64,000 nt of DNA from an uncultured Lachnospiraceae bacterium (GTDB lineage Bacteria; Bacillota; Clostridia; Lachnospirales; Lachnospiraceae), in the NCBI GenBank assembly GCA_947567595.1, contig CANOMQ010000006.1, positions 62,001-126,000 of the forward strand, given 5' to 3'. Made by a program: the position numbers and the translations under genes. The notes under the pieces are model-generated. The model did not search any database. It was not told the origin of the DNA and saw nothing but the letters and a program-made list of their open reading frames with translations. Shown in pieces: positions 4,401 to 63,147 of the stretch. Numbering within the stretch: the first letter of the stretch is position 1; each line of letters opens with the position of its first letter.

Positions 4401-4721
4401 GGAAAGGTATCGGTAACATTTGAGACAGAGCAGCTTGGAAAGGTTGCGGCGGAATTTGATGTGACGGATAAAGGGATTTCCGGCATGGTGGTATATGAGA
4501 ATAAGACAGAAAAGGCGGCGCTTGAGGAGCTGAAACAGACAATGACGAAGGAGCTTTCCGGTGAGAGCGGGAAAGCGGTCAGCGTTCATCTTGTACAGTC
4601 CAATTCACTTGATTTGGGCAGATTTGGTCAGGACAGACAGGTACAGGGTATTGATGGCAAGGCGTCAACGGCACAGCTTTATCAGACGGCGAAGGCTTTC
4701 TTAACGGCATTAAAGGGATAA
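1413..4721 (+). CDS. large flagellar-associated protein (DUF6240-like) with FliK-like C-terminal domain
   Basis: A 1102-residue acidic protein without signal peptide or membrane segment, rich in Glu, Gln and Lys with long predicted helices. From memory it resembles DUF6240 proteins that sit beside flagellin in Lachnospiraceae; I could not check this. The last 120 residues (about 975-1060: INLK-type strands, AAEAGKVSVTFETEQLGKV, then ISGMVVYEN) have the strand pattern of the FliK hook-length control C-terminal domain, which suggests a hook or export role; this is inference. ATG 1413 has AAGGAAAG upstream. The gene lies behind a sigma-28-like promoter and only 16 bases before flagellin, so the two are almost certainly co-transcribed. 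Two TGACA-N4-TGTCA palindromes lie in its first 900 bases and a third at 3814. Confidence 0.6.
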   Translation: MNITLDSQISATAPAGTEGTATTTYKPQAATKEVRSSSGIQLGISDKVMDNEAYGHGLTAEDIMQQAANTDVSVQKDFMVVMSNCVSGEDLQKMQEEGFNPANVDVETYVNIVDKIKVTLAQAGVEVAGYNDNVSIDKMAEITGSRVSAQTLANDLSKMLTESDIPVTNENVEDLVRAIMEASGITEISDDMMKYMVVNHKAPTIENLYKAQFSSAGNMQQAQGYYSDGVAGSGSYYAKKADSINWDNLEKQLASVVSQAGLDTDEKTKSEALENAKWLVQSGIELNAENLTLVSDLKRLKLPMEQEELEKICVTALENGKSPSKALMTGETSIAEQAKELVETVEGISDEAVHEVAKSGEDINIKNLAAAQKQIDTQQKQGETAQQQPLAQDNVDEASLREVEAKRQLEEIRLMMTQEANRHLLKAGISIDTAELSKVVDALKAVEESIRAVLFRGDSAEENAQRALLFEETITKTKELSGLPAAVIGRLVMGGQSYTLNRIHEEGTALENEFSQENKGQGQNQNQQRQASQAYETLMTAPRKDLGDKISKAFRNVDDILEDMGLETSEPNRRAVRILGYNSMEINEENINAVKEADSKISGVISRMTPATTLQMIREQKNPLEMTMEELDEYLNDKSRDLDEDAQKYSTFLQKLDRAGNISETEREAFIGIYRLFRQIERSDGAVIGSVVATGAQMNFKNMLSAIRTSADKNMDVRVDNDFGALEELLVKGKAIDEQIMSGFHKENSDDTQRREQEQYYARLSGEINTELAGKTDVEKLKDVELSETTTIEQFADSIKMTQMSESQEKQEEWKRENLKNFQENLNEVQKVDEQVIEALISYGQSISVDNIQAAEMLMLDRGSLFRQIVEKAEPADTDEDTTTQTEPEASAGDTVMNDVESSILEKAGRFTDALTDKESANEAYKEIISEAGKAVEEMIYKKGASRIDIKAAQSLYKGLTLAGNLAKEENYEVPMNIKGEITSVNLKIYHNAAEAGKVSVTFETEQLGKVAAEFDVTDKGISGMVVYENKTEKAALEELKQTMTKELSGESGKAVSVHLVQSNSLDLGRFGQDRQVQGIDGKASTAQLYQTAKAFLTALKG

Positions 4722-4737
4722 TAGTGGAGGTTAGATC

Positions 4738-6483
4738 ATGAGAATTAATTTAAACATTTCATCAATTGTAGCGCAAAATGCATTAGCCAACAATGACACA
4801 CGGCTTTCCAATTCGACATTAAGGCTTTCGAGCGGTCTTAAGATTAATAAGGCGTCTGATAACGCGGCAGGACTTGCGATTGCAAGAAAAATGGACGCGC
4901 AGATTAAGGGCTTGATGCGTGCAAATCAAAACTCGGAGGACGGTCTTTCCGTTGTAAATACCGCGGACGGCGCTATGGCGGAGATGCATGATATTTTGCA
5001 GAGAATGAACGAGCTTGCAATCCAGTCAGCGAACGGCACCAATTCCGATGATGACAGAAAGCAGATACAGCTTGAAATTGACCAGTTGGTCGCGGAGCTT
5101 GACAGAATTGCGGATACAACGCAGTTCAACGCGCAAAATCTTCTTGACGGGACATTTGCTTATAAGGGATATACCAATACGGAAAATGTGAAAGTGATGT
5201 CCTATAAGGACGGCGTTGCAAGCGGTACCTATGTAATCGGACAGCTTGAGTATTATCATTATGAGGATAAGGTTACGACCTATGAGGGCGAAGTCGGCGC
5301 GGACGGGAAAAAGATTGTTAAGGATATTGAGAATGAAGAGACATTTAAGGTAAGCAGTGCTGATGATGTGAAGAAGGCATTGAAAAAGGGAAATGACGTC
5401 GGCGACGGGACACCGTATGACAAGGAGACGATTAGTGGCATTAAGGCATTCCCGGAGGACTCCTTTGTGACGATTGAGGATGAAAATATTATTATCCAGT
5501 CACAGGGCAATTTTGAGATTAAGCTTGCCGTGAATAACAGGGACGCGGTTACTACCTCAACCTACAGCAATCTTGCACAGACAAATGGAGGAGCGCCAGT
5601 TACACCAACAACCTACAACACCTACACGTACAGAAACGTATCCGTGGCAGTGTCAACCGCTACAACAGTCCGGTACAATATCAACCTCATCAATGTAGGC
5701 GGAGAAGACGAAAACGGCATCGTCAAGAATGACAGGGTGTCCAAGGAGGACTATAAAAATGTCGCAAAAGGCTTAGAGGAATATTTTGAGGGAAATAATC
5801 TGAAAAATGTCGAGATAACCGACATGACCTGCGACCGGGCGACAGGAAAAATGCATATAGAATTTAAATGTACGGACGAAAATGGTACTGATAATGTAGT
5901 TAAGGATATTGATTTGGTGCTTCATCAGGAGACAAAAAATGTAAATTCGGATCCGACACTTTCTGACGGCAGTAAGAAGGAATACACGATGGAGGATTAT
6001 CTCTATCAGTTGAAGGAGACCACGAAATCAACATATGTTGTCGGAGGAGACAAACCGGAGGACTGTATCCAAATCAACATCACCGGCATGGGCGCAATGC
6101 AGGTTCAGGTCGGCGCAAACGAGGGACAGATTTTGGAAATCGAAATACCGGATTTGAATACCTTATATTTAGGCGTTGATAATCTTGACATTTCAACGGA
6201 GGATAAGGCAACGGCAGCGATTGACACAATCGGAAAGGCGATTAATTACCTGTCCAGCGTGCGTGCGAAAATCGGTGCATATGCAAACCGTCTTGAGCAT
6301 ATTGTCACAAATCTTGATACGACAGAGGAAAATATGACAGCTGCCTACTCACGTATTATGGACGTTGACATGGCAACAGAAATGACAGAGTACTCAACCG
6401 TTCAGGTACTTGTACAGGCGTCAACATCAATGCTTGCGCAGGCGAACGAGAGACCGCAGCAGGTATTGCAGCTATTGCAGTAA
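4738..6483 (+). CDS. fliC: flagellin
   Basis: Structural subunit of the flagellar filament, exported through the flagellar type III system. Residues 1-140 form the conserved D0/D1 region (MRINLNISSIVAQNAL, LRLSSGLKINKASDNAAG). LQRMNELAIQ at 87-96 matches the TLR5-recognised LQRxxELxxQ stretch. The C-terminal D1/D0 part begins near residue 480 (KATAAIDTIGKAINYLSSVRAK region) and ends ANERPQQVLQLLQ. About 340 residues between are a variable, surface-exposed D2/D3 insert, making it longer than the roughly 275-residue minimal clostridial flagellins. Ribosome site GGAGG at 4726-4730, seven bases before ATG. It is followed by its export chaperone. Confidence 0.95.
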   Translation: MRINLNISSIVAQNALANNDTRLSNSTLRLSSGLKINKASDNAAGLAIARKMDAQIKGLMRANQNSEDGLSVVNTADGAMAEMHDILQRMNELAIQSANGTNSDDDRKQIQLEIDQLVAELDRIADTTQFNAQNLLDGTFAYKGYTNTENVKVMSYKDGVASGTYVIGQLEYYHYEDKVTTYEGEVGADGKKIVKDIENEETFKVSSADDVKKALKKGNDVGDGTPYDKETISGIKAFPEDSFVTIEDENIIIQSQGNFEIKLAVNNRDAVTTSTYSNLAQTNGGAPVTPTTYNTYTYRNVSVAVSTATTVRYNINLINVGGEDENGIVKNDRVSKEDYKNVAKGLEEYFEGNNLKNVEITDMTCDRATGKMHIEFKCTDENGTDNVVKDIDLVLHQETKNVNSDPTLSDGSKKEYTMEDYLYQLKETTKSTYVVGGDKPEDCIQINITGMGAMQVQVGANEGQILEIEIPDLNTLYLGVDNLDISTEDKATAAIDTIGKAINYLSSVRAKIGAYANRLEHIVTNLDTTEENMTAAYSRIMDVDMATEMTEYSTVQVLVQASTSMLAQANERPQQVLQLLQ

Positions 6484-6513
6484 TGAATGTTTCAGTCCGC
6501 ATGGAGGATAATC

Positions 6514-6990
6514 ATGACGAAGGAAAATAAGCAAATGTTTACGAGACGGATAACGCAGGCAAACCGTACGCAGCTTGTGGTGATTGTGTATGAAATGCTT
6601 TTGGTATACTTAGAAGATGCGGTAAATGCACATGAGGCAGGGGAAAAGCAGGAGTTTGTGCGCAATCTTGAGCTTGCGCGGGAGTGCATCGGTCAGATGC
6701 GCACAAGCCTGAACTTTGAGTATGAGCTTTCCAAGAATTTGTTTGCGATATATTGCTTCGCGGACAGGGAGCTTGCAAATGACATTTTCGGAAATAAGAC
6801 AGACAACCTTGACGTATTAAAAATGATATTTACAAAGCTCCATGACGCGTATTATACCATAAGCAAGGAGGATAAATCAGCGCCCCTTATGGATAATATT
6901 CAGGACGTTTACGCAGGCTTTACTTATGGAAAGACAGATGTCAACGAAAGCCTTGTCAATTATGATGCAAGGAGAGGTTATATGGCATAG
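6514..6990 (+). CDS. fliS: flagellar export chaperone FliS
   Basis: A 158-residue helical protein that binds the flagellin C-terminus and keeps it soluble until export. The FliS pattern is visible: MFTRRITQANRTQLVVIVYEMLL (read as N-terminal helices with the tQLvvivYe core), then a four-helix body with a YELSKNLFAIYCFADREL segment. An upstream in-frame ATG at 6487 exists, but GGAGG at 6503-6507 stands six bases before ATG 6514, so 6514 is chosen. It lies 30 bases after flagellin. Its last 35 bases overlap, tail to tail, the end of the gene on the other strand. Confidence 0.85.
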   Translation: MTKENKQMFTRRITQANRTQLVVIVYEMLLVYLEDAVNAHEAGEKQEFVRNLELARECIGQMRTSLNFEYELSKNLFAIYCFADRELANDIFGNKTDNLDVLKMIFTKLHDAYYTISKEDKSAPLMDNIQDVYAGFTYGKTDVNESLVNYDARRGYMA

Positions 6991-7336
6991 CCGGAATGGT
7001 GGGTAGCGTATCGTCCTCAAAGTCTTCATAATCCTCATAAGCATCAAAGGATTTGCAGGAGGTATACTGCTCATATAACTGCATACGCTCCGCCTGCTGG
7101 AGTAAAAAACGGTAGCGTTTTAGAGCGGAGTCGATTTCATAAATGTAGCAGTCTATCAAATCCGGGTCTGTTACGTTGTCGAAGCCTGAGTAGGCGATTT
7201 CGAGGGCGTGCTGTGTTTTTTCGATATCGGAGAGCAGGAGCTCGCGCGGAGTCAGCGCAGAAGGTGCCGCCGCAGCGTTTTGCTGGTTGGTGCCGGAGGG
7301 GTTAAGTATCTTTTTGAGGCTGAAATATGTTTTCAT
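6956..7336 (-). CDS. DUF2508 (YaaL-like) family protein
   Basis: A 126-residue protein. Its core (ELLLSDIEKTQHALEIAYSGF, then NVTDPDLIDCYIYEIDSALKRYRFLLQQAE) is the DUF2508/YaaL signature, a small helical protein of unknown function usually found near recR and bofA; neither is here. The tail is extra: an acidic stretch (AYEDYEDFEDD) not present in short family members. I chose ATG 7336 (MKTYFSLKK), which has AAAGGA upstream on the minus strand; an in-frame ATG at 7411 would add 25 residues without a good ribosome site. The gene converges on fliS and overlaps its 3' end by 35 bases, so each message carries antisense to the other. Confidence 0.75.
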   Translation of the reverse strand: MKTYFSLKKILNPSGTNQQNAAAAPSALTPRELLLSDIEKTQHALEIAYSGFDNVTDPDLIDCYIYEIDSALKRYRFLLQQAERMQLYEQYTSCKSFDAYEDYEDFEDDTLPTIPAMPYNLSLHHN

Positions 7337-7456
7337 AGAGGCTGTCCTTTCATAATGAAATGCAAATGCGTTGGCAAATATCAATTTATTTATAGTATAG
7401 ATTTTACCCATTGTATTTATGCAAAAAAAGTGCCATGAAAGTGCATAAAATTTAAG

Positions 7457-7523
7457 AAATATTGTTCACCCTTATTGGTAAAAAATAACAAATATAAAAA
7501 TAGGGGTGGACAATATTTTTTTC
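7457..7523 (+). terminator. long imperfect hairpin with T-run
   Basis: AATATTGTTCACCC (from 7458) pairs with GGGTGGACAATATT (to 7516) allowing G-U pairs, with a loop of roughly 25 bases, followed by a run of Ts to 7522. Read on the plus strand it is a plausible terminator for the flagellin-fliS message, which would then run antisense through the whole DUF2508 gene. It might instead be a DNA operator; the loop is long for a terminator. Confidence 0.45.
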
Positions 7524-7542
7524 TTGTGATATAGTCAATAAC

Positions 7543-47514: not shown

Positions 47515-48669
47515 ATGGAAAAAAAGCGCAAAAGCGGCATTAAGCTGACTGCAAAAATGATTATTTTATTTTTAGTAATTATTTTTGTTCCGACAATAGC
47601 GGCGGCAATGGTGTTTCTCGGGTTCGGCTACCATGAGAATATCGATATTATTCATGAGCTGTCGGAAGAAGGCATAATGATCGGAGAAATGGTCGGCAGA
47701 AATTTTTTAAAACATTTTACAATTATTATGATAGCAGTTCTTGCAATAACAAGTGTTATTATAACGAGCTGGATAAAGACGGATATTTATGATCCGTTAA
47801 AAGAAATTAATGTGGCAATGCAAAACATAGCGGACGGCAATTTTGATTACCATTTAACAGAAAGCCGCGACGACGAAATCGGACAGCTTTTCGGTAATTA
47901 TGAGCAGATGCGCCTTCGGCTCAAGGAAAACGCGGAGGAAAAAGCCGAAAACGAAAAAAAGCAAAAGGAGCTGGTAAGCAATATATCCCATGACCTTAAA
48001 ACACCGATTACTTCCATAAAAGGCTATGTGGAAGGCATAATGGACGGCGTCGCGAACACTCCTGAAAAGATGGATAAATATATCAAAACCATTTACAACA
48101 AAGCTAACGACATGGATCGGCTGATAAATGAACTGACCACATACTCTGGCATTGACTCCAACAAAATACCCTATCATTTCCACATTTTAAATGTATCCGA
48201 CTATTTTTCGGATTGCGTAGAGGAAATCGGACTTGACTTGGAGTCAAAAAACATTCATTTAAACTACACGAACCTCGCGCCGCCTGATACCTGCGTGGTG
48301 GCAGATCCGGAGCAGTTCAAAAAAGTCATCAACAACATTGTCAGCAACAGCGTGAAGTACATGGGACACGACAACGGCGTGATTTCAATCCGCATACAGG
48401 ATGACATCGAATCCGTCAAAATTGAAATCGAGGACAACGGCAAAGGAATCGCGTCAAAAGACATCGGAAATATTTTTGAACGGTTTTACCGGACAGATGC
48501 CTCGCGCTGTTCCATGCAGGGCGGCAGCGGTATTGGACTAAGCATTGTCAAAAAAATAGTCGAGGATCACGGCGGCTACGTATGGGCGACTAGCAAAGAA
48601 GGCGAAGGCACCTGTATGCATTTCGTGTTACGCAAATACATGAAAAATAATGACGAAGTAATTATATAG
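47515..48669 (+). CDS. sensor histidine kinase
   Basis: A 384-residue membrane kinase of the OmpR/PhoR class. Two membrane segments (about 14-36 and 66-86) enclose a very short external loop of some 30 residues, so it may sense within the membrane. HAMP follows (YDPLKEINVAMQNIADGNFD), then HisKA with SNISHDLKTPITSIKGYVEG (phospho-His about 158) and an ATPase domain (NNIVSNSVKYM, IEDNGKGI, GGSGIGLSIVKKI). The response regulator starts 32 bases downstream. TATAAT at 47435 could be its -10, with a weak -35. Confidence 0.9.
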   Translation: MEKKRKSGIKLTAKMIILFLVIIFVPTIAAAMVFLGFGYHENIDIIHELSEEGIMIGEMVGRNFLKHFTIIMIAVLAITSVIITSWIKTDIYDPLKEINVAMQNIADGNFDYHLTESRDDEIGQLFGNYEQMRLRLKENAEEKAENEKKQKELVSNISHDLKTPITSIKGYVEGIMDGVANTPEKMDKYIKTIYNKANDMDRLINELTTYSGIDSNKIPYHFHILNVSDYFSDCVEEIGLDLESKNIHLNYTNLAPPDTCVVADPEQFKKVINNIVSNSVKYMGHDNGVISIRIQDDIESVKIEIEDNGKGIASKDIGNIFERFYRTDASRCSMQGGSGIGLSIVKKIVEDHGGYVWATSKEGEGTCMHFVLRKYMKNNDEVII

Positions 48670-48701: not shown

Positions 48702-49391
48702 ATGAGCAAAATATTGATTGTAGAAGACGAGGAAGCGATTGCAGAGCTGGAAAAGGATTATCTTGAGCTAAATGATTTTGAGGTAACGATGGAAAACAGC
48801 GGCGACACAGGACTTGCAACAGCGCTCTCAGAAGATTTCGACTTAATCATACTCGACCTCATGCTTCCCGGCATTGACGGTTTTGAAATCTGCAGACGCA
48901 TCCGCGAGGACAAAAACGTACCGATTTTAATGGTATCCGCCAAAAAAGACGACATCGACAAAATCCGTGGCTTAGGCTTAGGCGCGGACGATTACCTCAC
49001 CAAGCCCTTTAGCCCGAGCGAGCTTGTGGCAAGGGTAAAAGCTCACATGGCACGTTACGAACGTCTCGTCGGCAGCCACGCAAAGGAAAACGACATTATC
49101 GAAATCCGCGGAATCCGCATTGACAAAACCGCAAGACGCGTATTTATCAACGACGAAGAAAAAACTTTCACCACCAAGGAATTTGACCTCTTAACCTTCC
49201 TCGCGGAAAACCCGAACCACGTTTTCACCAAAGAAGAAATCTTTAGGGAAATTTGGGATATGGACTCCATCGGCGACATTGCAACCGTCACCGTTCATAT
49301 TAAAAAAATCCGCGAAAAAATTGAAACTGACACCAGCAAGCCGCAGTATATTGAAACCATTTGGGGTGTTGGGTATCGGTTTAAGGTATAA
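48702..49391 (+). CDS. OmpR-family response regulator
   Basis: A 229-residue regulator. Receiver: ILIVEDEEAIAELEKDYLEL, phospho-Asp in LIILDLMLPGIDGFE, PILMVSAK, DDYLTKPFSPSEL. The winged-helix output domain shows FTTKEFDLLTFLAENPNHVF and GDIATVTVHIKKIREKIE with the closing TIWGVGYRFKV. It pairs with the kinase upstream. No transport or resistance gene lies next to the pair, so the regulon is unknown. Confidence 0.95.
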   Translation: MSKILIVEDEEAIAELEKDYLELNDFEVTMENSGDTGLATALSEDFDLIILDLMLPGIDGFEICRRIREDKNVPILMVSAKKDDIDKIRGLGLGADDYLTKPFSPSELVARVKAHMARYERLVGSHAKENDIIEIRGIRIDKTARRVFINDEEKTFTTKEFDLLTFLAENPNHVFTKEEIFREIWDMDSIGDIATVTVHIKKIREKIETDTSKPQYIETIWGVGYRFKV

Positions 49392-50731: not shown

Positions 50732-50764
50732 AGAGGAAATCTATGAAAAGTCGGGGTGATAGGA

Positions 50765-51598
50765 ATGAAATACAATACAAATGACTTGTCAGAAATACTT
50801 GATGTCACGACAAACACAATTCGCCGGTATGAGGATAAAGGGTTCCTCAATCCAGAAAGAAATGAGCAGAACGGCTACCGTTCCTTTGACAGCGGCGATT
50901 TGGAAAAGGCAATCTACATAGGGCGATACCGCAAAATCGGCTTTGACCATAATGATATCGCAAACCTGTTTCAGGAAAATTTGGGCATGGGGCTGCGGCG
51001 CTTTCATAAGAAAATGAACGAGATTGACGAGAAAATCTCCGCGCTTATGGCAACGCGCCACATGCTGAACGACGACATCATCCTCATGGAAAGAGGGATT
51101 GCCAATAAAGGCGAAATATTCGAAAAGACCTGCCGTGCATTTTATTACATTCTGTACCACGACAAAGGACGAATCCATACGGACGGCAAAAACGGCGAGG
51201 CATACCGGAAATTCATGGAGGAGTGCCCCGAGATAAAGTATATTTATATTTTTGACAAGAAAAATGTCGAAAACCAAAATCTCGTATACAGCGAGGGCAT
51301 TGCTTCCAACGAAATATTCACAGGTCTGTACGGGGTGGAAGTCGAGCCGCCCATTCAATACTATAAAAGACGCCACAGCCTGATGCGCTTCGCGCGGCTT
51401 CCCATTGACATGGAAAAGGAAGAACAGATGTCGCAGGCAGAGCTGAGACAGGCGCTTTACGGCGGTTTCTTGGAATATGCCGGGCAAAATCATCTTAAAA
51501 TAACAGGCGATATGATTGGGATAAAAATAGGATTTTCCCGTGAGGAGGGCAGGGAGTGGCAGTATGTATTCCTAAACCTTCCGGTGGAAAAAATGTAA
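50765..51598 (+). CDS. MerR-family transcriptional regulator with large effector domain
   Basis: A 277-residue regulator. Residues 1-70 are the MerR winged helix (LSEILDVTTNTIRRYEDKGF, ERNEQNGYRSFDSGDLEKAI). A coiled-coil helix follows (FHKKMNEIDEKISALMATRH), then a 150-residue effector domain that looks like a GyrI/AraC-type ligand-binding fold (RFARLPIDMEKEEQMSQAEL, IKIGFSREEGREWQYVFLNL). The ligand is unknown. ATG 50765 is preferred to GTG 50756 because GGGGTG lies six bases upstream. Confidence 0.8.
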   Translation: MKYNTNDLSEILDVTTNTIRRYEDKGFLNPERNEQNGYRSFDSGDLEKAIYIGRYRKIGFDHNDIANLFQENLGMGLRRFHKKMNEIDEKISALMATRHMLNDDIILMERGIANKGEIFEKTCRAFYYILYHDKGRIHTDGKNGEAYRKFMEECPEIKYIYIFDKKNVENQNLVYSEGIASNEIFTGLYGVEVEPPIQYYKRRHSLMRFARLPIDMEKEEQMSQAELRQALYGGFLEYAGQNHLKITGDMIGIKIGFSREEGREWQYVFLNLPVEKM

Positions 51599-51663: not shown

Positions 51664-51817
51664 ACCGTGCCCGTGCACGAGATTGTGGATAATACACAAA
51701 AAAGAATTAAAATTTTGTAAAATAAAGACTATTTAATTATTCTACAAATTTTGGTAATATATAAGGTACATAGAAAGCTTTTTAAACGAAAAAAAGCAAA
51801 TGTTGCACGAGCACGGA
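51664..51817 (+). promoter_or_regulatory. structured leader of the giant lyase gene
   Basis: CCGTGCCCGTGCA (51665-51677) can pair with TGCACGAGCACGG (51804-51816), 12 of 13 positions, across about 125 bases. Local alternatives exist: CGTGC-CCGT-GCACG at the 5' side, and GCACG-N8-CGTGC (51811-51828) near the start codon. Whether the 5' arm is transcribed is not known, because no clear -10/-35 pair was found; TAATATATAA at 51753 could be a -10 region. Confidence 0.3.
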
Positions 51818-51864
51818 AAGGAACGTGCCGCGCGGGGACAACCAACATGAGAAGGAGGAAGGAT

Positions 51865-54800
51865 ATGAGCAAATTCAGAAAAGGGCTTATGAAACGTGTC
51901 ATGGCAGTGATTTTATCTGGTGCTATGGTAATGTCAAATATGACGGCATACGCGGCTGAAATCGCATCCGGTGATACGCAAGAGCATGCAGAGACGGTTT
52001 CTGAGGCAAGTGAGCCGGAAACAGAAGAGACAACGTCGAAAGAAGCTGAAAAAGCCGATGCGCAGGACACCGCAGGGGAAGCTGCTTCCAACGTGCCATC
52101 TGAAGGCGGGACAATCGCTTCGACGGAAACGACAGCTCCTACAGAGGCTTCTACAGAAACGCAGACAGAGGCAAAAACAGAAGCCGAGACTACTGTATCA
52201 ACAGAGACGGACAAGACAGAGACCGAAACAAGCGAAGCGGCAGCTTCTACAGAGATTGCATCAGAAACGGAAATAGAGACAGAAACCGAAACAACCGAGT
52301 CAACAGAGACCGCGTCCGAGACGGAAGAGGCGACAGAGACTGAGACGGAAACCGAGTCAACGCAAGAGGAGACGACGGAGGAGTCGGTGGATAATGCGGA
52401 AGCCGCGGTTACAAATTTTGAAATTACAGAGGCTCTTATAGCAGGACAAGAATATGGTGATGATATTCTAAAGTTTACTGTGCTGGGTGAAACAGAATTT
52501 AAAACTGCCAAAACACCTATTGTGGTTGGGGAGAATGAATATACAAAATATGTTGCCGGAAAAGCTGATGCGAAAGCTGCTGAAGATGCAAGCATGAATG
52601 AAGCAAAGGGAATTCTTATTCCTGTAACGGGTGCGGCATACAAAATCCAGCCTTCAAAAAAAGCAAAAATTACATTTGTAGTCAGCGGGGTTTCGGTTTC
52701 ATCAAAGGGACAGGCAAGACACTGGTATTTTGTAGAAGATGATGGAGCAACAGGAACAGTGGTTAAGAAATCGCCAGAGGATAGTTTTGAGTCAGGAGCA
52801 TATGATTGTAGTCTTGAGGCGGGAAAAACATACTATTTTTATGTAAATGGTTCAAAAGTGAATGTCTACAATATAAGCTGGCAGGAAAAAAATACAAACC
52901 GTCCCGCATGGGAAGGTGTAAAGGAGCCGGTCATTTCAAAAGTGGCTCTCAGCGAGACCAATAACGAAAAAATACAGGTAACAGTAGATACCGTTATCGG
53001 AGACGAAGGCGCTGATAAGCTGACAGTATATATGTATGACGAAAATGGAGATGAATCGGAAAGGCAGGAATCCAATAAAGAGGCAAATTCAACAACGATA
53101 GAGTTTGCACCTTCGGAATCAGGCAAGTATACCTTCAAGGCAGAGATAAGCCGTGAGGGAGTAGAAGATGTGAAGACGTGTGAGTATACTGAGCCGATTG
53201 AGTGTAAAGTAACGGAAAAGATGAATTGGGATGACTGGGATTTCTTGGAATACGGAAACGGTATAAACGGTAAGAACAGCTACAAGGTAGATAAGGAGAA
53301 CAACGAGATAAAACTTGTCGCAGGCTCCGGTAAAATCGTCCCGGGTTCCAATGACGGCGTTGCTTTTTACTATACCAAGGTTCCTACAAGCAAAAACTTC
53401 ACTTTTACGGCAAATGCTCACGTAAATAGCTGGACATTTTCAAATGGTCAGGAAGGCTTTGGAATTATGGCAGCAGACCAAGTTGGTGAGACAGGAGCAC
53501 GTGTTTGGAATAACAGCTATCAGGCGGTCATATCCAGAATCAGCTATAAATGGAACGGTGTTGGAATATCAGAGGACGGCTCTGGGGAACCAATTGAAAT
53601 GCAGATTGGTGTTGGTTCCACTGAAAAAGTCGGAGTTACACCGCAGGATGTACAGGATTTTAAGGACAATAAAATAGGACAGCCAAGGCGTTTTAAGGCA
53701 CAGCAGAAAGCGCTTGATACGACATATGCAAAGCTTGGAGATGGAACATATAACATCGTGGCGAACTATACAAATAGTGATGTAAAAGGAAGCTTAGGCG
53801 AAGACCATGTGCTGTATCAGGATTTTTGGCTTCAGATACAGAAAAATAACACGGGTTATTTTGTGAGCTATGGAAAGTATAAATGCGAAACTGATGAAAA
53901 GGGAAGGCCAAAGAAGGACGAAAAAGGACGGGCAATTTATGCGCTGGAAGATGGAAAGAAAGTCTTGGATGAGTCTACAATCATTACGCAAAAGTACTAT
54001 GATACAGAAGCTTTAAACCTGCTTGACAGCAACTACGTTTATGTGGGTGTGTTTGGAGCAAGAAACGTGGATATAACATTTTCTGATATCAGCCTGAAAA
54101 GAACCAATCCGAAAAATGATCCTGATCCTGAAGAACGAAAGGTTAAGCTTATTAATCTTTCAAAAGAGATTTTGTCAGGCAGTCTGACAAATACGCCAGA
54201 GCATACATTTTTATTTGCCAGCAATTGGAAGGGCATTCTTAGGGTTAAGGACAGTACGGGCAAATATATACCACAGGTGGTAAAGGATGAAAACGGAAAT
54301 CCGGTAAAGGATGAAAATGGTGATTACATTCCGGAAATTGTAAGAGACGAAAACGGAAATCCGGTAAAGGATGAGAACGGAAATGATAAAATACTTGATT
54401 ACTATGAGGTAAATGGAACACTTGATCCTGCTGTTCAGTATTGTCAGGATGGTGATAACGCAAAGGACACAAAGATTCGAATCCCAATTGAGGATCTTTC
54501 GATTGGTCAAAATGTGTTTACGGTAGAATATACACCTGAGGAAGGGTGGTTTGTTGAAGAAGAAGAAGCTGTCAGGCTGAAATCTTATGAAACAGTAAAG
54601 TTCAATCACACGGTAGAATATAAAAAGTACGGTATGGAAGGTAATACGATTTATGTATCGCAGGATGGAAAGCCTGAAAATACCGGTACAGAGGACAGCC
54701 CGCTTGATATTTATACGGCTGTAAAATATGCGCTGCCCGGACAGACAATTCTGCTTTCAGGCGGAACATATAGTTTAAACAGAACCCTTCAGATTCCTAA

Positions 54801-57800
54801 GACTGTCTGCGGACAGCCGGACAAGGTAAATGAAAAGGGTGAGCCGGATGAAAACGGTAAGGAAACTTACAAGAACTATATCAAGATGATAGGCGATCCC
54901 AATGAGAGGACCGTACTTGATTTTAACAGCTTAGTGGCGGCTGTAGTTACAGTAGGTGATTATTGGTATTTTAAAGACTTTGATGTTATCCGCTGCAAGG
55001 ATGGTGAAAAGGGCATTCAGGTATCCGGAAGCTACTGTGTATTTGACAGGGTGGATACATATAGAAACGGAAGCACCGGCTTACAGATTTGCCGTGCGTC
55101 AGGTACGGATACATATAAGGACTGGCCCCATGACAATTTAATACTGAATTGTAATTCATTTCTGAATGTAGATATAGGTCAGGAGGATGCAGATGGATTT
55201 GCGGCAAAGCTTACCAGTGGAAGCAATAACGTATTTGACGGATGTATCGCGGCATTCAATGCGGATGACGGTTGGGATTTGTTTGCAAAGGCGCAGACAG
55301 GAAGCATTGGTGGCGTTATTATTAGAAACAGTATCGCATACAGAAACGGTTACCTTCTTATAACTCCTAGTGGAGAGATTAAGACACCTGCGGAAGCGGC
55401 AGCAGAAGGTGACAGCGTAATTTGTGTAAAGGGAAATGGAAACGGAAACGGCTTTAAAATGGGTGGTGATGGTCTTAGAGCCGGAAGCGAGTATGATGAG
55501 GGATATGGCGAGGATAAAGATTCGTGTATTCCTAATATAGGTCACAGACTTTATAACTCCCTTTCGTTTGGCAATAAATCAAAAGGCTTTGACTCAAACA
55601 GCGCTCCGAATATAAAGGCTTATGATTCGATTTCATTTAATAATGATGGAGCGAATATCAGCTTTGCAACATATGATTATGTCAACCATACGGACTATGA
55701 GCTTAGCAATTGTGTTTCTATAAGGTCAAAGGAAAATATGGTACGGTCGCAGGTAGAGCCGGATGTACAGACATTTTCAGATGGTTATACAACAACACAC
55801 AGCATTAATTTTGCGAAGGAGACAAGTGGAAGCAATAAAAGTGCAGCCATATATATGTCACTTAAAAATGTAAAAGATAAGGAAGCAAAAATCAAAGTTT
55901 GGTGGCGCAGCAGCGATCCGAACAAGGACAGCCAGATAGTTGTTCTGTCTGAAAAGGATGCTGTGCTTGCAGAGGGCGATTACAGCAAAAATGGTGAACT
56001 CATGATCTCTGAGCTGGCAACTAAGGAGACGGAAAAAATCTACTTAGGATCCAAGGGAGGTTCCATGAATCTCTATAGAGTGGAAGTAACTGCTACTGTG
56101 AAGCAAAAAATAGATAAGACAGATAAGAATAGTGAAGAGGAGTATGTGCCTGATAAGAAATTTTCCGTGGATATCAGTAACGATTATGGTAAACCCGAGG
56201 AATTAAAGTTAAACGGTACAAAGAAGTTCTACAATAATGCTACTGATAAGGATGGAATTGAAATTTCAGCATATTATAGTGCAATACCTAAAGATGGCAT
56301 TGAGGCAAAGGGACAACAGACATCAGGGGTAATTTTAGATAAGGTTGAGAATGATACAGCATTTTACTACCGTGGGGAAGATTTGGAGAAGGGTATTGGA
56401 AAATCAACAAATAAATCAGGAGAGGAATATACTCCCGATGATTTCAAATCGCTTGATTATCCGTATTTGAATACGATTCCGTTATCTGTTGATGACTGGA
56501 GAAACGAGGATGGCACGATAAATGTGGGAGATTTCCTTAAACTGGAACCGAAGGAAGGCGAAAATCCTAATCCCAATCCGCCTTCTTTGGGAGGAAATTC
56601 ATCGCCGGTAGATGTGAATGACCTGATTGGTGATGACGTAGACGGAACCATAACAGGAGGCACAAATATTGTGTCGCCATCAGAAGATTTTGGTGATGAC
56701 TATCCGCAGGAAGGTCTTGATGCAGTAGGCGAGGATGGCAAGAAAAAGTATTATGGACAGCTTTGGGGGGCAGAAATTAAGTATCTTGATTACACAAGCA
56801 AGGAACCTATTCGCTACACAGGAAAGAAAATTGAGCCGGAGGTACATGTACGCTTTAGTGCAGATCCGGAAGTGTTAAGAAAGGGAAAAGCGTATACAAT
56901 AAAGTATTCTAACAATATCAATGCAGGTACGGCAACCGCAACGATTAAAGGCATTAATCAGTTTACAGGATTTATAAAGGATGTAAACTTTGAAATTGGG
57001 CGGATTGATGTGAAAGATAAGTCTGTTGCGATTCCCAATGCAGTGGCAGTTAAAAATATTGCCGAAGCGGAGAAGCTCATCAAGCCTACATGGCAGGGAA
57101 AGGCAATGAAAAAGGATACGGAATATCAAATTAAAACTGTCGATGTAGAAGGTGTAAAAAAGATTTGCATAACAGGTATTGGAAACTTCGAGGGAACAAA
57201 GTATGTAGATATACATGATATTAATTCGATTTCCGATGACAAGCTGATAACCAAAGCGAAAATATCAATCGTGCCTGAGGATAAAAATCAGACTTATTCC
57301 GGTGCGGAATGCACTCCCCGCATTGAAGTGACAAAAAAGGATGGTTCTCCAATTGATGAAAAGCAGTATATGGTAGCTTATGCAAATAATATTGAAATTG
57401 GTAAAGCAACAATTACTGTATTCGGAGATGGCACAAACTATTATGGCAGTAAGAGCATAACGTTCAATATTAAGGCTGGAAATCTGAAAGATGTCGCGAT
57501 GGTAGTAAATAAGTCAGGTGCAAATAGAGATAAAGAATTTAAGGCACCGGAAAGTGTAATCTATAATGGAAAATCTGCTGAAATACCGGTAAACAGCTTT
57601 AAGGTGGTATTGAAGGATGAAAAAGGAAACGCTACTACTACCAGGCTGAAAAAGGATATTGATTATAAGGTTGTACAGAGTGGTACAAACAAGGCAGGCT
57701 CCGCGAGCCTTACAATAAAGGGTATCAATCATTATAAGGGTGCTATTAGCTATAAGTATAAAATCCTGCCGCGTGATTTGGAAAAGGACAAGAGCGAAAT

Positions 57801-58809
57801 AGAAATCTTATATGCAAAGACACTTGATTATACAGTAGGCGGAACAAAGTTTGTGCCGGGACAGAATTTCAATATCAAGATCAATGGTCATAATATTGAT
57901 ACGCGCAATTATCGGCTGAGCTATCGGGACAATCGGAATGTGGGACAGGCGACGGTTATAATATCAGGGCAGAAGTCTTTAACAGGAAAGATAGAACAAA
58001 GCTTTAATATTGCAAAAACAAACATGGAAGGAAACCCGGATTTTAATGTAACCTATAAAGATGTAATTACGAATGGTAAGCCTTTGACCTATGCTGATCT
58101 CAAGAAAGCAAATATTGGTATTACACAGATGGTAAACGGAAAAGCCAAAAAGCTTTCTGCGGGACGTGATTACGATAAAGATAAGGTTGAGTATTACATT
58201 GACGTAGACGGCGATTATAAGCTTACTGAAGCTGATGGAAAACCAGTAGACATTACTTCAAAAAGTGCTGTACAGGCATTTGCGGATAAGGGATATGTGA
58301 CTGTTCTTGTAAAGGTTCGTGCGGCAGCGGGTAGCGAGTGCGGCTATACCGGAGAGCTGGTAGACTGGTTTAGGGCAGCGAAGTGGGGTATCCAAAAAGC
58401 AAAGGTTGAAAATCTCAGACCTAGGATTTTTGGCAAGAATTATAAGAAAGGTAACGGTCTGTCAACACCGATGACATGGACGGATACGGAAGTGGCAAAG
58501 ATTGAGGACTATCTGAAGTTTACCTGCCAAACTGAGAAAGGGATAGAAGAAGTGACATGTCAGGATTTAATCGGGGCATACACTTACGACAATGACTACC
58601 TCAGCAAAGATGGTTTTGCAATTGTTCCGAACAGTTATAAGAAAAATGATAGGGTTGGTATGGCATCCTTTACAATCATAGGAACCGGAAAATATGCTGG
58701 AACCAAGAAGGTATCATTCAAAATTATCAATAAGGCAGTGGCAGAAAAAACAAAGACTGATAAGTCAGATCCCAATTCTCCAACACAATGGGAATCAACC
58801 TATAATTAA
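51865..58809 (+). CDS. giant secreted PL9-family pectate lyase with Ig-like repeats
   Basis: A 2314-residue secreted enzyme. Signal peptide MAVILSGAMVMSNMTAYA, cut near residue 30. Residues 32-185: Glu/Thr-rich linker. About 186-750: beta-rich domains, one a jelly-roll-like sugar-binding type (MNWDDWDFLEYGNGINGKNS). About 925-1292: right-handed beta-helix of polysaccharide lyase family 9 (EDSPLDIYTAVKYALPGQTI, GSYCVFDRVDTYRNG, QEDADGFAAKLTSGSNNVFD, calcium-binding DDGWD, and catalytic Lys in GNGNGFKMGGDG). About 1310-1400: a further beta domain. About 1610-2300: four to six Ig-like repeats (YTIKYSNNINAGTATATIKG). No LPXTG or other anchor is seen. It should cleave polygalacturonate by beta-elimination. 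AAGGAGGAAGG precedes ATG 51865; an upstream ATG 51751 is rejected as it would bury the signal peptide. Confidence 0.85.
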   Translation: MSKFRKGLMKRVMAVILSGAMVMSNMTAYAAEIASGDTQEHAETVSEASEPETEETTSKEAEKADAQDTAGEAASNVPSEGGTIASTETTAPTEASTETQTEAKTEAETTVSTETDKTETETSEAAASTEIASETEIETETETTESTETASETEEATETETETESTQEETTEESVDNAEAAVTNFEITEALIAGQEYGDDILKFTVLGETEFKTAKTPIVVGENEYTKYVAGKADAKAAEDASMNEAKGILIPVTGAAYKIQPSKKAKITFVVSGVSVSSKGQARHWYFVEDDGATGTVVKKSPEDSFESGAYDCSLEAGKTYYFYVNGSKVNVYNISWQEKNTNRPAWEGVKEPVISKVALSETNNEKIQVTVDTVIGDEGADKLTVYMYDENGDESERQESNKEANSTTIEFAPSESGKYTFKAEISREGVEDVKTCEYTEPIECKVTEKMNWDDWDFLEYGNGINGKNSYKVDKENNEIKLVAGSGKIVPGSNDGVAFYYTKVPTSKNFTFTANAHVNSWTFSNGQEGFGIMAADQVGETGARVWNNSYQAVISRISYKWNGVGISEDGSGEPIEMQIGVGSTEKVGVTPQDVQDFKDNKIGQPRRFKAQQKALDTTYAKLGDGTYNIVANYTNSDVKGSLGEDHVLYQDFWLQIQKNNTGYFVSYGKYKCETDEKGRPKKDEKGRAIYALEDGKKVLDESTIITQKYYDTEALNLLDSNYVYVGVFGARNVDITFSDISLKRTNPKNDPDPEERKVKLINLSKEILSGSLTNTPEHTFLFASNWKGILRVKDSTGKYIPQVVKDENGNPVKDENGDYIPEIVRDENGNPVKDENGNDKILDYYEVNGTLDPAVQYCQDGDNAKDTKIRIPIEDLSIGQNVFTVEYTPEEGWFVEEEEAVRLKSYETVKFNHTVEYKKYGMEGNTIYVSQDGKPENTGTEDSPLDIYTAVKYALPGQTILLSGGTYSLNRTLQIPKTVCGQPDKVNEKGEPDENGKETYKNYIKMIGDPNERTVLDFNSLVAAVVTVGDYWYFKDFDVIRCKDGEKGIQVSGSYCVFDRVDTYRNGSTGLQICRASGTDTYKDWPHDNLILNCNSFLNVDIGQEDADGFAAKLTSGSNNVFDGCIAAFNADDGWDLFAKAQTGSIGGVIIRNSIAYRNGYLLITPSGEIKTPAEAAAEGDSVICVKGNGNGNGFKMGGDGLRAGSEYDEGYGEDKDSCIPNIGHRLYNSLSFGNKSKGFDSNSAPNIKAYDSISFNNDGANISFATYDYVNHTDYELSNCVSIRSKENMVRSQVEPDVQTFSDGYTTTHSINFAKETSGSNKSAAIYMSLKNVKDKEAKIKVWWRSSDPNKDSQIVVLSEKDAVLAEGDYSKNGELMISELATKETEKIYLGSKGGSMNLYRVEVTATVKQKIDKTDKNSEEEYVPDKKFSVDISNDYGKPEELKLNGTKKFYNNATDKDGIEISAYYSAIPKDGIEAKGQQTSGVILDKVENDTAFYYRGEDLEKGIGKSTNKSGEEYTPDDFKSLDYPYLNTIPLSVDDWRNEDGTINVGDFLKLEPKEGENPNPNPPSLGGNSSPVDVNDLIGDDVDGTITGGTNIVSPSEDFGDDYPQEGLDAVGEDGKKKYYGQLWGAEIKYLDYTSKEPIRYTGKKIEPEVHVRFSADPEVLRKGKAYTIKYSNNINAGTATATIKGINQFTGFIKDVNFEIGRIDVKDKSVAIPNAVAVKNIAEAEKLIKPTWQGKAMKKDTEYQIKTVDVEGVKKICITGIGNFEGTKYVDIHDINSISDDKLITKAKISIVPEDKNQTYSGAECTPRIEVTKKDGSPIDEKQYMVAYANNIEIGKATITVFGDGTNYYGSKSITFNIKAGNLKDVAMVVNKSGANRDKEFKAPESVIYNGKSAEIPVNSFKVVLKDEKGNATTTRLKKDIDYKVVQSGTNKAGSASLTIKGINHYKGAISYKYKILPRDLEKDKSEIEILYAKTLDYTVGGTKFVPGQNFNIKINGHNIDTRNYRLSYRDNRNVGQATVIISGQKSLTGKIEQSFNIAKTNMEGNPDFNVTYKDVITNGKPLTYADLKKANIGITQMVNGKAKKLSAGRDYDKDKVEYYIDVDGDYKLTEADGKPVDITSKSAVQAFADKGYVTVLVKVRAAAGSECGYTGELVDWFRAAKWGIQKAKVENLRPRIFGKNYKKGNGLSTPMTWTDTEVAKIEDYLKFTCQTEKGIEEVTCQDLIGAYTYDNDYLSKDGFAIVPNSYKKNDRVGMASFTIIGTGKYAGTKKVSFKIINKAVAEKTKTDKSDPNSPTQWESTYN
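54277..54396 (+). repeat. 60-base in-frame tandem duplication
   Basis: Bases 54277-54336 and 54337-54396 are similar copies, each encoding about 20 residues built from the unit VKDENGNP. The repeat lies in the giant lyase just before its catalytic domain. Confidence 0.75.
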
Positions 58810-59227: not shown

Positions 59228-59256
59228 TTGACGTTTTTTGTTTTTAAATGTAGAAT
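59228..59256 (+). promoter_or_regulatory. sigma-A promoter of the nucleosidase-partner unit
   Basis: -35 TTGACG (59228-59233), 17-base spacer, -10 TAGAAT (59251-59256), 134 bases before the start at 59391. The region from 59165 to 59390 holds nothing else I can support, though the untranslated leader would be long. Confidence 0.65.
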
Positions 59257-59390
59257 AAATGTAAGAAAAATCAAAACTCAGCTATAACTGATAGTGGTTT
59301 ATTTGCTGACGGATGGTTGTAAATTTATAATTTGCCATATATACCTATGACATTTTTTCGTTAAATAATACGAAAGGAAGGACTACAAAA

Positions 59391-60254
59391 TTGATAGAGA
59401 GAACATTTTTATTTATCACATTTAACGAAAATGAGAGAATAGCATTTTTAAAAAAGTTACATAACCGGAAAGAAGAAACATTTCACAATGGTATCGTAGT
59501 AACAAATGGAAGATTTGGAAAGTACGATGTAGTCCATTTTCATTCACCTTATCAAGGCAATGAGTCGCAGATGCCTGTTATGAATGCGATACAAATTATC
59601 AAGCCGGATGCAGTAATTCTGGTAGGTATTGCATGCGGGGCAAATGTAAATAAGAAAGATCAGCATATTGGTGATGTCCTGATATCAAAAAATGTCATAG
59701 ACTATGATTTCCACAAAGATAATAACGGTAAAATAGAACAGCGCGGTATTATTGTTCCGAGTGGCAATACGCTTTACGGCTTGTTTTCTCAACACGCATT
59801 TAAATGGAAGGAAAAGTATAAGCTGGCATATCATTGTGGGGATATCATTTCCTCGACAGTATTGTTGAATAATCCCGAAAAGAAAAAAGAGATATTTGAT
59901 GCTTTCTGTGATAATCCAAAAGGCTATGAAATGGAAGGGATTTCAACATTTAGGATATGCAGAAATGCTAATATTACGGAATGGATTATTGTGAAAGGAA
60001 TTAGCGATTTTGGGGATGGAAACAAAAAAGATGAGTATCAGGTGATTGCTTCTGAAAATGCAGTTTCCCTATGTCAATATGTGTTTTCGCAGGAAGGCTT
60101 AAAATACGTACCTAAGGTATGGGAGTCTTCTGAAAACCACGATACGTGTAAGATTGTTATTCATCAAGTTAGTGGTGATATTTTATCTGAAAATGCAAAG
60201 AAACCTGACTTTGGGAAAAATAATACTTTTGGAAATGTAACAATCAATTTTTAA
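59391..60254 (+). CDS. phosphorylase-fold (PNP_UDP_1) nucleosidase-like protein with C-terminal motif
   Basis: A 287-residue protein. Residues 1-235 are a purine phosphorylase/MTAN-like fold: AIQIIKPDAVILVGIACGAN (the glycine-rich first strand), IGDVLISKNVIDYDFHK, YEMEGISTFRIC (the MExE-type catalytic region) and VKGISDFGDGNKKDEYQ (the Asp of the SDxGD motif that protonates the base). So it may cleave an N-glycosidic bond in a nucleotide or nucleoside. The last 32 residues (QVSGDILSENAKKPDFGK, then NNTFGNVTINF) are a separate motif found again in the next gene. The start is TTG 59391 with AAGGAAGG upstream. Stand-alone proteins of this fold act as effectors in several bacterial conflict systems; that role here is inference. 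Confidence 0.75.
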   Translation: MIERTFLFITFNENERIAFLKKLHNRKEETFHNGIVVTNGRFGKYDVVHFHSPYQGNESQMPVMNAIQIIKPDAVILVGIACGANVNKKDQHIGDVLISKNVIDYDFHKDNNGKIEQRGIIVPSGNTLYGLFSQHAFKWKEKYKLAYHCGDIISSTVLLNNPEKKKEIFDAFCDNPKGYEMEGISTFRICRNANITEWIIVKGISDFGDGNKKDEYQVIASENAVSLCQYVFSQEGLKYVPKVWESSENHDTCKIVIHQVSGDILSENAKKPDFGKNNTFGNVTINF

Positions 60255-60271
60255 AGCAGAGAGGGTTTTTC

Positions 60272-61783
60272 ATGGATGAGAAAGAGGTTATCGAGCATGT
60301 TTCAGATGATGAGACAGGATTGAATGACAAGGCAGATACGGAAGGAGCTTGCGAAGAAGTAACAGAAGAAAAGGCAGTAGAACAAGAAGCTGTACAGAAA
60401 GAATCGGAAAAAAATAAAGGAAAAGAGACTGATACGTCAACTCTTTTGAATGATGCAGATTTGAGCCAAAGCGACCAAGAATTTATAAAACGGCGTGAGA
60501 GTATTTTGTCCAATGGCTTAAATATGTCTGACAATATCACTGTTTATCAATTTTTTGGAGATTACATGTCAGGGAATGCACGGAAAATTGATTTTGGCGA
60601 ACAAAACGAGTTTGACGATGTTTCAATAGGTAATAAAAGTGACACAGATGAGCCGCCACTGGATAAAAAGGAAGTAAAAATTGATCTTTCAGACAGTAGA
60701 AAGATATATGAATATTTGAAAGAAAACAGACAGTCACCCTATTGTGCTTTTCTGATAGCTTTGTCAATATTTGAGAAGTGTCAGCTTGAATTAGTACGCA
60801 ATGAGGCAGAAATGCTATATAGTATTTTATCGGACGAACAAAGAGAGATTATCCATCCAAATGGCGAACATCAGATAGTACAGCGTGAAAGCTTTGAAGT
60901 ATCTCAAAAGGAGCTGGCAGACAATTTTGGACTTTGTTTCTATAATGATTATCTGATTACTTTTGGAGGAAGAATTCGGTCAGGATTTGTGCGCTTTGCA
61001 TCAAAAGAATATTCTGATAATATTTTGCGTGTAATCTTTACGGAATTTATTACATTGAAGAATAAAATAGTCGGATATTTAACCCAGTTGATTTGTTCGG
61101 AAAAGATAAGCTTATATGTTGCTGCAATAAATGCAATTAAGAAAATTTGTGACATCAATCCGGAGTTTTTTATTTCCGGAATTGTTACCCGTTTAATCAA
61201 AAATAAAACGGTACCATCAGATATTGCCGTTGCGGAGATATTGTGCAGCATTGCCCAATTGTCAGATGATACATATAATGCAGAAAGATTTTTGGAAGCA
61301 GTATATGGGAAAAACAAAGATGTGCATTATTATATTACTACTTTATTAACGTGCAAAACGCTTAAATATGATAGGGAGAAGATTGCGAAATTAATTCGTC
61401 CTATTTTACGTGAATTAGAAACACAGCCACACTTAGAGTACATGTTAAAGAATATTAAAATTGAATTGCCAGAAGAAGAAAATTATATAAAAAATGTTGG
61501 CGTATTTTATAATATTGGAGAACGCTATGCGGAGTATTATATAGCGCTTATATATGAATTTTGCCGTAGGTTGGACGAACTTAAAAGGTCAGATCCGCAA
61601 AGAGTTTGTGTGCAGTTGGTGCTTATTCTCTTTATTCAGGAAGATTATAATGAGAGTTATTTAAATACAGATAAGCCGGCAAAATTTAAAGACATGATTT
61701 TCATCAGATTGGTATTGCGGGACAAAGAGACGGCAGATTGCTGGCTGCTATTGACCCCAAATATGATAAGTACATTCAGTTAA
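60272..61783 (+). CDS. partner protein sharing the C-terminal motif of the nucleosidase
   Basis: A 503-residue protein starting 17 bases after the nucleosidase gene. Residues 1-80 are a Glu/Lys-rich disordered region. Residues 88-119 (FFGDYMSGNARKIDFGEQ, then NEFDDVSIGN) match the end of the nucleosidase without gaps. Residues 130-500 are largely helical and look like an alpha-solenoid (IVGYLTQLICSEKISLYVAA, IVTRLIKNKTVPSDIAVAEI). No P-loop is visible, so I cannot call it a STAND NTPase. The frame ends at WLLLTPNMISTFS, where the -1 frame continues as LLAAIDPKYDKYIQLKQ, so a frameshift is likely. Confidence 0.65.
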   Translation: MDEKEVIEHVSDDETGLNDKADTEGACEEVTEEKAVEQEAVQKESEKNKGKETDTSTLLNDADLSQSDQEFIKRRESILSNGLNMSDNITVYQFFGDYMSGNARKIDFGEQNEFDDVSIGNKSDTDEPPLDKKEVKIDLSDSRKIYEYLKENRQSPYCAFLIALSIFEKCQLELVRNEAEMLYSILSDEQREIIHPNGEHQIVQRESFEVSQKELADNFGLCFYNDYLITFGGRIRSGFVRFASKEYSDNILRVIFTEFITLKNKIVGYLTQLICSEKISLYVAAINAIKKICDINPEFFISGIVTRLIKNKTVPSDIAVAEILCSIAQLSDDTYNAERFLEAVYGKNKDVHYYITTLLTCKTLKYDREKIAKLIRPILRELETQPHLEYMLKNIKIELPEEENYIKNVGVFYNIGERYAEYYIALIYEFCRRLDELKRSDPQRVCVQLVLILFIQEDYNESYLNTDKPAKFKDMIFIRLVLRDKETADCWLLLTPNMISTFS

Positions 61784-62025
61784 AACAGGAGACAGTCGAT
61801 CGAAAGAGAAAAAATGCCTCGGATGATTTTGATTTGCAGTTAAAGATAATAGATGCAATCAAAACCAGTGAGATGAATGATTTAGATAAAGATGAGCTGT
61901 TGAAACGAATATTTAACGGTGCCGCAGCGCCCCGGCTTGCTGAAAAAACGGATTGGGATGCTGTGGAGAATGAGACTTATGTAGATTACGATGAGCTTAG
62001 TGAAGATGGAGAGGATGTTGTATAA
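61738..62025 (+). CDS. C-terminal part of the partner protein, in the -1 frame
   Basis: Ninety-five codons overlapping the previous frame by 46 bases. The start would be TTG 61738 with no good ribosome site. The sequence (AAIDPKYDKYIQLKQETVDR, LKIIDAIKTSEMNDLDKDEL) reads as the natural continuation of LVLRDKETAD in the previous frame, so both probably belonged to one protein of about 585 residues. I looked for a slippery heptamer in 61690-61783 and found none, so a one-base deletion or a sequencing error is more likely than programmed frameshifting. It could also be a separate small gene. Confidence 0.5.
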   Translation: MLAAIDPKYDKYIQLKQETVDRKRKNASDDFDLQLKIIDAIKTSEMNDLDKDELLKRIFNGAAAPRLAEKTDWDAVENETYVDYDELSEDGEDVV

Positions 62026-62960: not shown

Positions 62961-63147
62961 GAGGCAGCTCCTTGCGATTTATGTTTGGTATTTTGACGGA
63001 AAATATAAATATATAATTATATTATTATATATACAGTTAAAATGCAACTAATGAATTGTTTTCATAAACATAAAAGCGTAACAGTTAGCACGCAATAATA
63101 TAGATAAAAAAGCTATGTGTTTTGGTATAGCAACGGAGGATAGAAAA

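Follow-up and report, generated by a model that had tools for sequence, protein, structure and literature searches.

An operon family in which short matching motifs may couple PNP-type and TIR effectors to a partner protein outside the NLR class

Most descriptions of short homotypic motifs linking an enzyme to a sensor concern NOD-like receptors (NLRs). In systems built on bacterial amyloid signalling sequences (BASS; Dyrka et al. 2020), excerpts of PMC7889193 and PMC8086366 describe adjacent genes in which a short motif at the C-terminus of the effector matches one at the N-terminus of an NLR receptor, with several motif families and with TIR proteins among the effectors. A passage of PMC7889193 raises openly the question whether bacterial and fungal pathways also include signalling amyloids that work without NLRs. 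In conflict systems based on effector-associated domains (EADs), like-with-like adaptors are predicted to bring swappable effectors, including enzymes of the purine nucleoside phosphorylase (PNP) superfamily, to a core protein (excerpts of PMC7159879 and PMC8195603), and in Detocs the PNP effector splits ATP into adenine and ribose-5'-triphosphate (a portion of the review PMC11249213). Here we describe two adjacent genes from an uncultured Lachnospiraceae bacterium, encoding a PNP-superfamily nucleosidase-like effector and a partner protein of no known family, and the operon family to which they belong. They lie in a stretch of 64,000 nucleotides, hereafter the window (assembly GCA_947567595.1, contig CANOMQ010000006.1, positions 62,001 to 126,000). 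The family is real and carries homotypic motifs on effector and partner, and the signalling mechanism proposed below is plausible for it. It offers a small, concrete candidate for the NLR-independent case, with one partner scaffold, two effector chemistries and three motif types.

The genes and motifs of the pair are listed by window position; L023 and G632 denote the same related metagenome-assembled genome (MAG), which carries the same effector-partner pair.

59391..60254, + strand: effector open reading frame (ORF), 287 residues, PNP-superfamily nucleosidase-like; TTG start, with ATG at the corresponding site in L023
60153..60245, + strand: effector residues 255-285, putative docking motif at the C-terminus; 15/31 identities with the partner motif, kept in L023 beside an unconserved linker
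60272..61783, + strand: partner ORF, 503 residues, no known family, no Walker A; 3'-truncated relative to G632
60272..60532, + strand: partner head (residues 1-87), acidic and little conserved; D+E 30%, 21/69 aligned residues the same as in L023
60536..60628, + strand: partner residues 89-119, putative docking motif matching that of the effector; residues 90-121 are 21/32 identical in L023

A BLASTP comparison of the two window proteins gives an ungapped alignment of residues 255-285 of the effector with residues 89-119 of the partner (15/31 identical, E 2e-6). The initial annotation had proposed a motif common to these two ORFs, and both the ORFs and the motif are borne out, but not its exact register, since pairing the last 32 effector residues with partner residues 88-119 is two residues off and leaves a single identity. 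The score of the 32-residue effector tail was reached by none of 5000 tail shuffles. Likewise, shuffling the entire partner 1000 times never yielded a score as high as the best local one of the two complete proteins, whose alignment includes the motif. Outside the motif, the likeness of the effector to the rest of the partner is at chance level (95 of 200 shuffles reach the score). Because at the DNA level the two genes match best over a stretch of 19 columns, located outside the motif, a recent DNA duplication between them is ruled out. In the window's own genome, the effector motif was found at E <= 10 in just these two places. Searching with the motif alone, a check suggested along with the proposal, gave nothing convincing outside the window: a profile of 30 positions made from the window's two motifs matched 6 of 391 genomes of the class at E <= 0.05, one of them the window's own, and the five other matches are weak. 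Three of the five can be read in ORFs and look like chance (a 69-residue frame, an unrelated protein and a dehydrogenase-like protein, presumably related to glutamate-5-semialdehyde dehydrogenase); for the other two the pattern script gave no match. In plasmids, tblastn with the effector motif found no match, and the partner motif met two Shinella records at E 2, which we take as chance.

One scan of contigs with a PNP profile, from which the best 80 of 168 loci were taken, placed L023 at the top, on contig JAIEEY010000045.1 of a Lachnospiraceae MAG. Its effector is 67% identical to that of the window, tail included, and the motifs of its own effector and partner match each other with E 1e-7. 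Between the two copies the motif is identical at 18/30 positions in the effector and 21/32 in the partner, against 4/16 in the effector linker, 3/13 in the partner linker and 21/69 in the partner head; the domains themselves are identical at 174/240 (effector) and 58/91 (partner) positions. Since motif identity lies far above linker identity, the motif is an island of constraint amid fast-changing linkers. In line with this, the nonsynonymous rate (dN) is below the synonymous rate (dS) in the effector domain (0.18 vs 2.0) and in the effector motif (0.36 vs 1.9), with dS near saturation; among the four partner regions, dS was computable in one only, which was not the motif.

Relatives of the partner were sought in genome sets that overlap one another. 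Searched alone against 250 genomes of the family, the window partner was the sole match, and a profile that included the second copy matched 2 of 397 family genomes, the window's and G746, the latter at 3.2e-16. With G746 added, the profile matched 2 of 175 relatives of G746 (G746 and G779) and 4 of 173 relatives of G632 (G632, G853, G861 and G866), and the same four were found again among 106 relatives of G866. Among 111 genomes of the phylum, the window's was the only match. The partner-profile searches yielded five further operons (G746, G779, G853, G861 and G866), and in 5/5 the gene preceding the partner encodes not a PNP but a TIR protein, with TIR_2 over the cut-off (2.3e-11 in G746, 1.7e-11 in G779, 4.5e-12 in G853, 1.5e-18 in G861 and 5.3e-18 in G866). 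Each TIR protein has a C-terminal tail resembling an N-terminal stretch of its own partner, in the region that holds the partner motif in the window. The tail that matches the N-terminal region of the partner thus recurs beside another enzymatic domain, where the initial annotation had suggested looking for it, and the motif letters of effector and partner differ together from operon to operon; both observations support the homotypic pairing that lay at the core of that annotation.

In all these operons the effector precedes the partner, which starts 11-17 bp downstream in six and overlaps the effector gene in G779. Such an order is also toxin-antitoxin-like, and the partner could be an inhibitor that mimics the self-assembly tail of the effector and keeps the enzyme off until the partner is removed, a reading that would produce just the sequences observed. 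However, the partner is large (481-569 residues in the five complete relatives), and the third gene that follows it, joined in four operons by a fourth, looks more like part of a sensor complex than of a simple antitoxin arrangement; we therefore regard antitoxin logic as unlikely.

The seven operons fall into three motif types, namely window/G632, G746/G779/G853 and G861/G866, and the effector and partner motifs co-vary between them. In a seven-by-seven matrix of 32-residue tails against partner motif windows, the latter chosen after inspection of the alignments of matching pairs, the 17 within-type cells score 33-80 and the 32 between-type cells 14-27. On the whole partner, the best match of the tail overlaps the motif window in 7/7 pairs, and in 7/7 pairs the effector body has no likeness to the rest of the partner beyond that of shuffled sequence. 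When tails were shuffled 5000 times and compared with the first 150 partner residues, the score of the pair was reached 0 times for the window, G632, G853 and G861, once for G866, 6 times for G746 and 172 times for G779; by BLASTP the G746 pair has E 0.01. The PNP-type motif is about 30 residues long, with a K.DFG..N.F core that is invariant in four copies, and the matching TIR-type tails comprise about 20-22 residues, made of G/N/D turns and hydrophobics, at the extreme C-terminus.

A possible, if doubtful, alternative is that a small folded homotypic adaptor, such as a beta-hairpin or an EAD-like mini-domain, makes up the motif and forms defined dimers instead of templating in the manner of an amyloid. 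The length and invariant core of the PNP type are less like a plain Gly/Asn cross-beta repeat, and in another PNP locus (L066, below) an EAD1 domain occupies the same two places. However, the TIR-type tails are in our judgement short for a stable fold.

The partner itself is without match at E <= 1 in Pfam, PADLOC and NCBIfam; PHROGs gave one weak match (0.051), the Protein Data Bank (PDB) two when searched with the partner alone (0.67 and 0.81) and none when searched with the partner family profile. Reading its sequence suggests that the family is helical. Its motif begins 51-100 residues from the N-terminus, behind an acidic head whose D+E content is 27-41% across the seven operons. The sequence GK[ST] is absent from the seven partner sequences, of which those of the window and G632 are incomplete, and from the remainder of the G632 partner, so that the earlier statement that the partner lacks a P-loop holds, and a classical STAND protein was rejected on this ground. 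Pfam found no NTPase (NB-ARC or NACHT) in the partners of the window, L023/G632, G746, G853 and G866, with three sub-threshold matches in G866, the best at 0.096. An ordinary enzyme was also considered for the partner and rejected for lack of any family match.

As far as the excerpts cited above portray the known systems, the operons resemble BASS in their adjacent genes, in the motif that matches between the effector C-terminus and the N-terminal region of the next protein, in having several motif types and in their TIR effectors. BASS receptors are NLRs, however, whereas the partner here has neither an NB-ARC/NACHT match nor a Walker A, its motif begins some way into the protein, and further genes follow. 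With EAD systems the operons share swappable effector or signalling domains, PNP among them, that are joined by like-with-like modules, but here the module consists of a short motif, no EAD-system core can be recognised in the core protein, and Pfam scans of the window, L023, G746, G853 and G866 pairs found no EAD, as far as Pfam models cover these domains. Since the defining feature of each is missing, an NLR receptor in the one case and a described EAD in the other, we class the family with neither. Detocs likewise has a PNP-superfamily effector but is a three-gene defensive two-component system, whereas here the PNP stands alone with a motif tail, and no kinase or receiver gene was recognised by eye beside the window genes. 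A literature search by title and abstract found no description of this operon, which is not proof of its being unpublished.

The assignment of the window effector is firm at the level of the superfamily (Pfam PNP_UDP_1, 9.9e-13, over the cut-off), and the best PADLOC model is a PNP-superfamily effector (2.1e-14). Residues E180, M181, E182 and D206, which we take to be active-site positions of methylthioadenosine/S-adenosylhomocysteine (MTA/SAH) nucleosidase, are invariant in 22/22 aligned sequences, the window protein included. All four of its PDB matches are MTA/SAH nucleosidases, as might be expected if the enzymes served housekeeping nucleotide salvage, tethered to a scaffold and with no immune role, and the failure to find partner relatives in phages, viral contigs or plasmids would fit such a function too. 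However, the genome of the window holds three other PNP-family genes whose family scores are much stronger, so that the effector is a divergent fourth. Moreover, the partner is rare among the 397 family genomes, and the same scaffold bears TIR effectors in place of PNP. A salvage role thus appears very unlikely. Relatives of the effector were not found in phages, and one was found on a plasmid, of Rhizobium etli, at 31% identity.

Tails that match the neighbouring protein are found with other PNP effectors as well. We surveyed 84 PNP loci (L019-L102; 4 viral, 80 genomic) with mechanical gene calls and scored the 35 that had a tail of at least 15 residues, a closed end and a next gene, using 500 shuffles each; the other 49 had a short tail, no next gene or an open end, and L023 was left unscored because its tail lay inside the profile match. 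At p <= 0.01, the tail is common to the next gene in 5/35 (L047, L062, L066, L068 and L087), L030 just missing with 0.012. Three of the five, L062, L066 and L068, can be read as modules common to both proteins. In L062 (425-1267 and 1270-3393; AGDN..Q.G...DVHI) and L068 (6905-8005 and 8009-10015) the next protein is of NB-ARC/TPR type, and its head is matched by the PNP tail through a short motif; in L066 (6983-8047 and 8097-9095) Pfam finds EAD1 on the PNP effector and on the next protein. In L047 and L087 a weak stretch is common to the PNP tail and a next protein of 861-862 residues (p 0.002, 500 shuffles). Outside the survey, at L017 (G274; 1509-5816 and 5858-7531, minus strand), a PNP effector with a INGPIYGPINTGSG tail stands beside a 1435-residue protein with an N-terminal NGTVNGPINTSSAP stretch; this protein has by eye a P-loop-like stretch and a GPIN motif match, and no Pfam match at 1e-3. 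L062, L068 and L017 thus resemble the window in that the PNP tail is like the head of the next protein, but their partners are NB-ARC/TPR proteins or, in L017, carry the P-loop-like stretch. Matching of a PNP tail to its neighbour is therefore known in kind from these loci and from L066, and what differs here is a partner without an NTPase.

Taken together, we put at roughly two in three the reading that in this operon family a homotypic motif couples swappable effectors of nucleotide-hydrolysing type, PNP or TIR, to a non-NLR partner, and that the window holds one damaged copy. A signal would arrive at the partner, either directly or by way of other products of the operon, that of the third gene and, in four relatives, a membrane protein. 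On its arrival the partner would cluster, its motifs would align and nucleate or dock the effector tails, like with like, and the resulting crowding would activate the enzyme. The active enzyme would destroy a nucleotide cofactor, ATP or a related nucleoside or nucleotide in the case of PNP and NAD+ in the case of TIR, and the affected cell would stop growing, perhaps as part of an anti-phage response. If true, there would be one more receptor family, lacking any known domain, and perhaps a connection between the sensing of the envelope and the depletion of nucleotides.

Several observations weigh against this reading. The matrix of motif types is not blind, since its motif windows were set after inspecting the matching pairs, a choice that favours the reading. 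In a window-free test, in which tails of 45 residues were set against the N-terminal 150 residues of the partner, two between-type cells, the G866 and G861 tails against the window partner, scored 40 and 48, equal to some matching pairs, their own pairs scoring 54 and 48; we would guess that Asn/Lys/Glu-rich linkers aligning by composition explain these two values. The G779 pair is not significant and unconvincing alone, because so many of its 5000 shuffled tails reach the score, as did 106 in a set of 2000. The independent units are the motif types rather than the operons, that is three, as the seven operons include G861, which looks like a near copy of G866. Nor is motif coupling general among PNP effectors, because 30 of the 35 scored loci had no shared tail at p <= 0.01. 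No relative of the partner was found in phage records searched with the window partner only, in plasmids searched with three partners, or in viral contigs searched with three partners by exact short peptides, by which close relatives only are detectable. Of eight genes around the window operon that were scanned with PADLOC, five had no match, and the matches of the remaining three, which lie 7.8-11.9 kb upstream, are partial. Finally, the window copy is truncated and thus probably not intact.

Further genes follow the partner. A third gene is found behind it in G632, G746, G779, G853, G861 and G866, encoding 337-388 residues where complete and cut by the contig end in G746; it was also searched for in the window's own genome, in viral contigs and in plasmids. 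The third-gene proteins of G632 and G746 are identical at 37/234 positions (E 0.06). One of these proteins (P0013) gave one weak match to the SPFH protein Erlin-1 (E 0.0025); the family profile found nothing, a second member (P0023) matched no SPFH protein, and Pfam gave no SPFH match. In the G779, G853, G861 and G866 operons a fourth gene encodes at least two hydrophobic segments, and no such gene is seen in the remaining 1.2 kb of the G632 contig. The C-terminal part of the fourth-gene protein looks SH3-like in three of the four: SH3_3 matches in G779 at 3.2e-7, over the cut-off, and below the cut-off in G853 (9.2e-5) and G866 (1.3e-3), with no match at 0.01 in G861. The fourth genes of the TIR operons, each with hydrophobic segments, are located as follows:

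L114, 1954-2739: fourth gene
L122, 2223-3020: fourth gene
L123, 4524-5360: fourth gene
L124, 2279-3115: fourth gene

The SH3-like fourth gene hints at a stimulus from the envelope. Tentatively, and less probably than not, one may picture the operons as an NLR-free immune relay of signalling-amyloid or prion-like type, with a new NTPase-less family of receptors or adaptors, a third-gene scaffold (SPFH-like by that one weak match), a membrane SH3-like protein that may read the envelope, swappable enzymes that would destroy NAD+ or ATP, and at least three distinct motif codes.

The window copy lacks part of the operon, which went unnoticed in the initial annotation. Two features mark the damage:

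61728..61786, no strand: deletion junction; the blastn match to G632 breaks at 61728 and restarts at 61786, with 1,110 bp net skipped
61738..62025, + strand: what is left of the third gene at its 3' end (95 codons), in another frame than the partner; matches residues 282-358 of the 388-residue G632 third-gene protein (43% identity, E 1.3e-15)

The G632 partner reaches the end of the L023 contig and appears to pick up again where a second contig, C450, begins, because the two contig ends match stretches of the window that are separated by 24 bp. On C450 the G632 third gene (388 residues) overlaps the end of the partner by 4 bases. The 1,110 bp missing from the window all lie within C450 and comprise about 93 partner codons and about 296 third-gene codons. 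Positions 61738-62025 had been considered as the end of the partner or as a programmed frameshift; both were rejected, as this is the third gene. For the window copy only, the chances seem to us evenly balanced that we see a remnant, already dead or dying, or that its gap is an assembly fault, and that nothing signals there now: the partner is short, most of the third gene is gone with the remainder out of frame, and a search of the genome turned up no further third-gene copy. On the other hand, the effector frame and both motifs are still open, and in the comparison with L023 dN is below dS in the effector domain and motif, with the near-saturation of dS noted above.

We make no claim of a defence island for the neighbourhood of the window operon. 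The partial PADLOC matches lie upstream of a giant gene, at 47515-48669 (PDC-M43B, 1.3e-9), 48702-49391 (SduA, 2.3e-5) and 50756-51598 (mad1, 2.2e-11, about 50 residues). Two giant secreted-looking proteins flank the operon, one in the window (51751-58809, 2352 residues) and one in L018 (10037-17353, 2438 residues). Upstream of the L023 operon are a TerD gene and a gene for a zinc-ribbon YARHG protein (L023 3290-4468 and 4874-6334), and a zinc-ribbon protein is also encoded downstream of the window operon, from window position 63115 onward.

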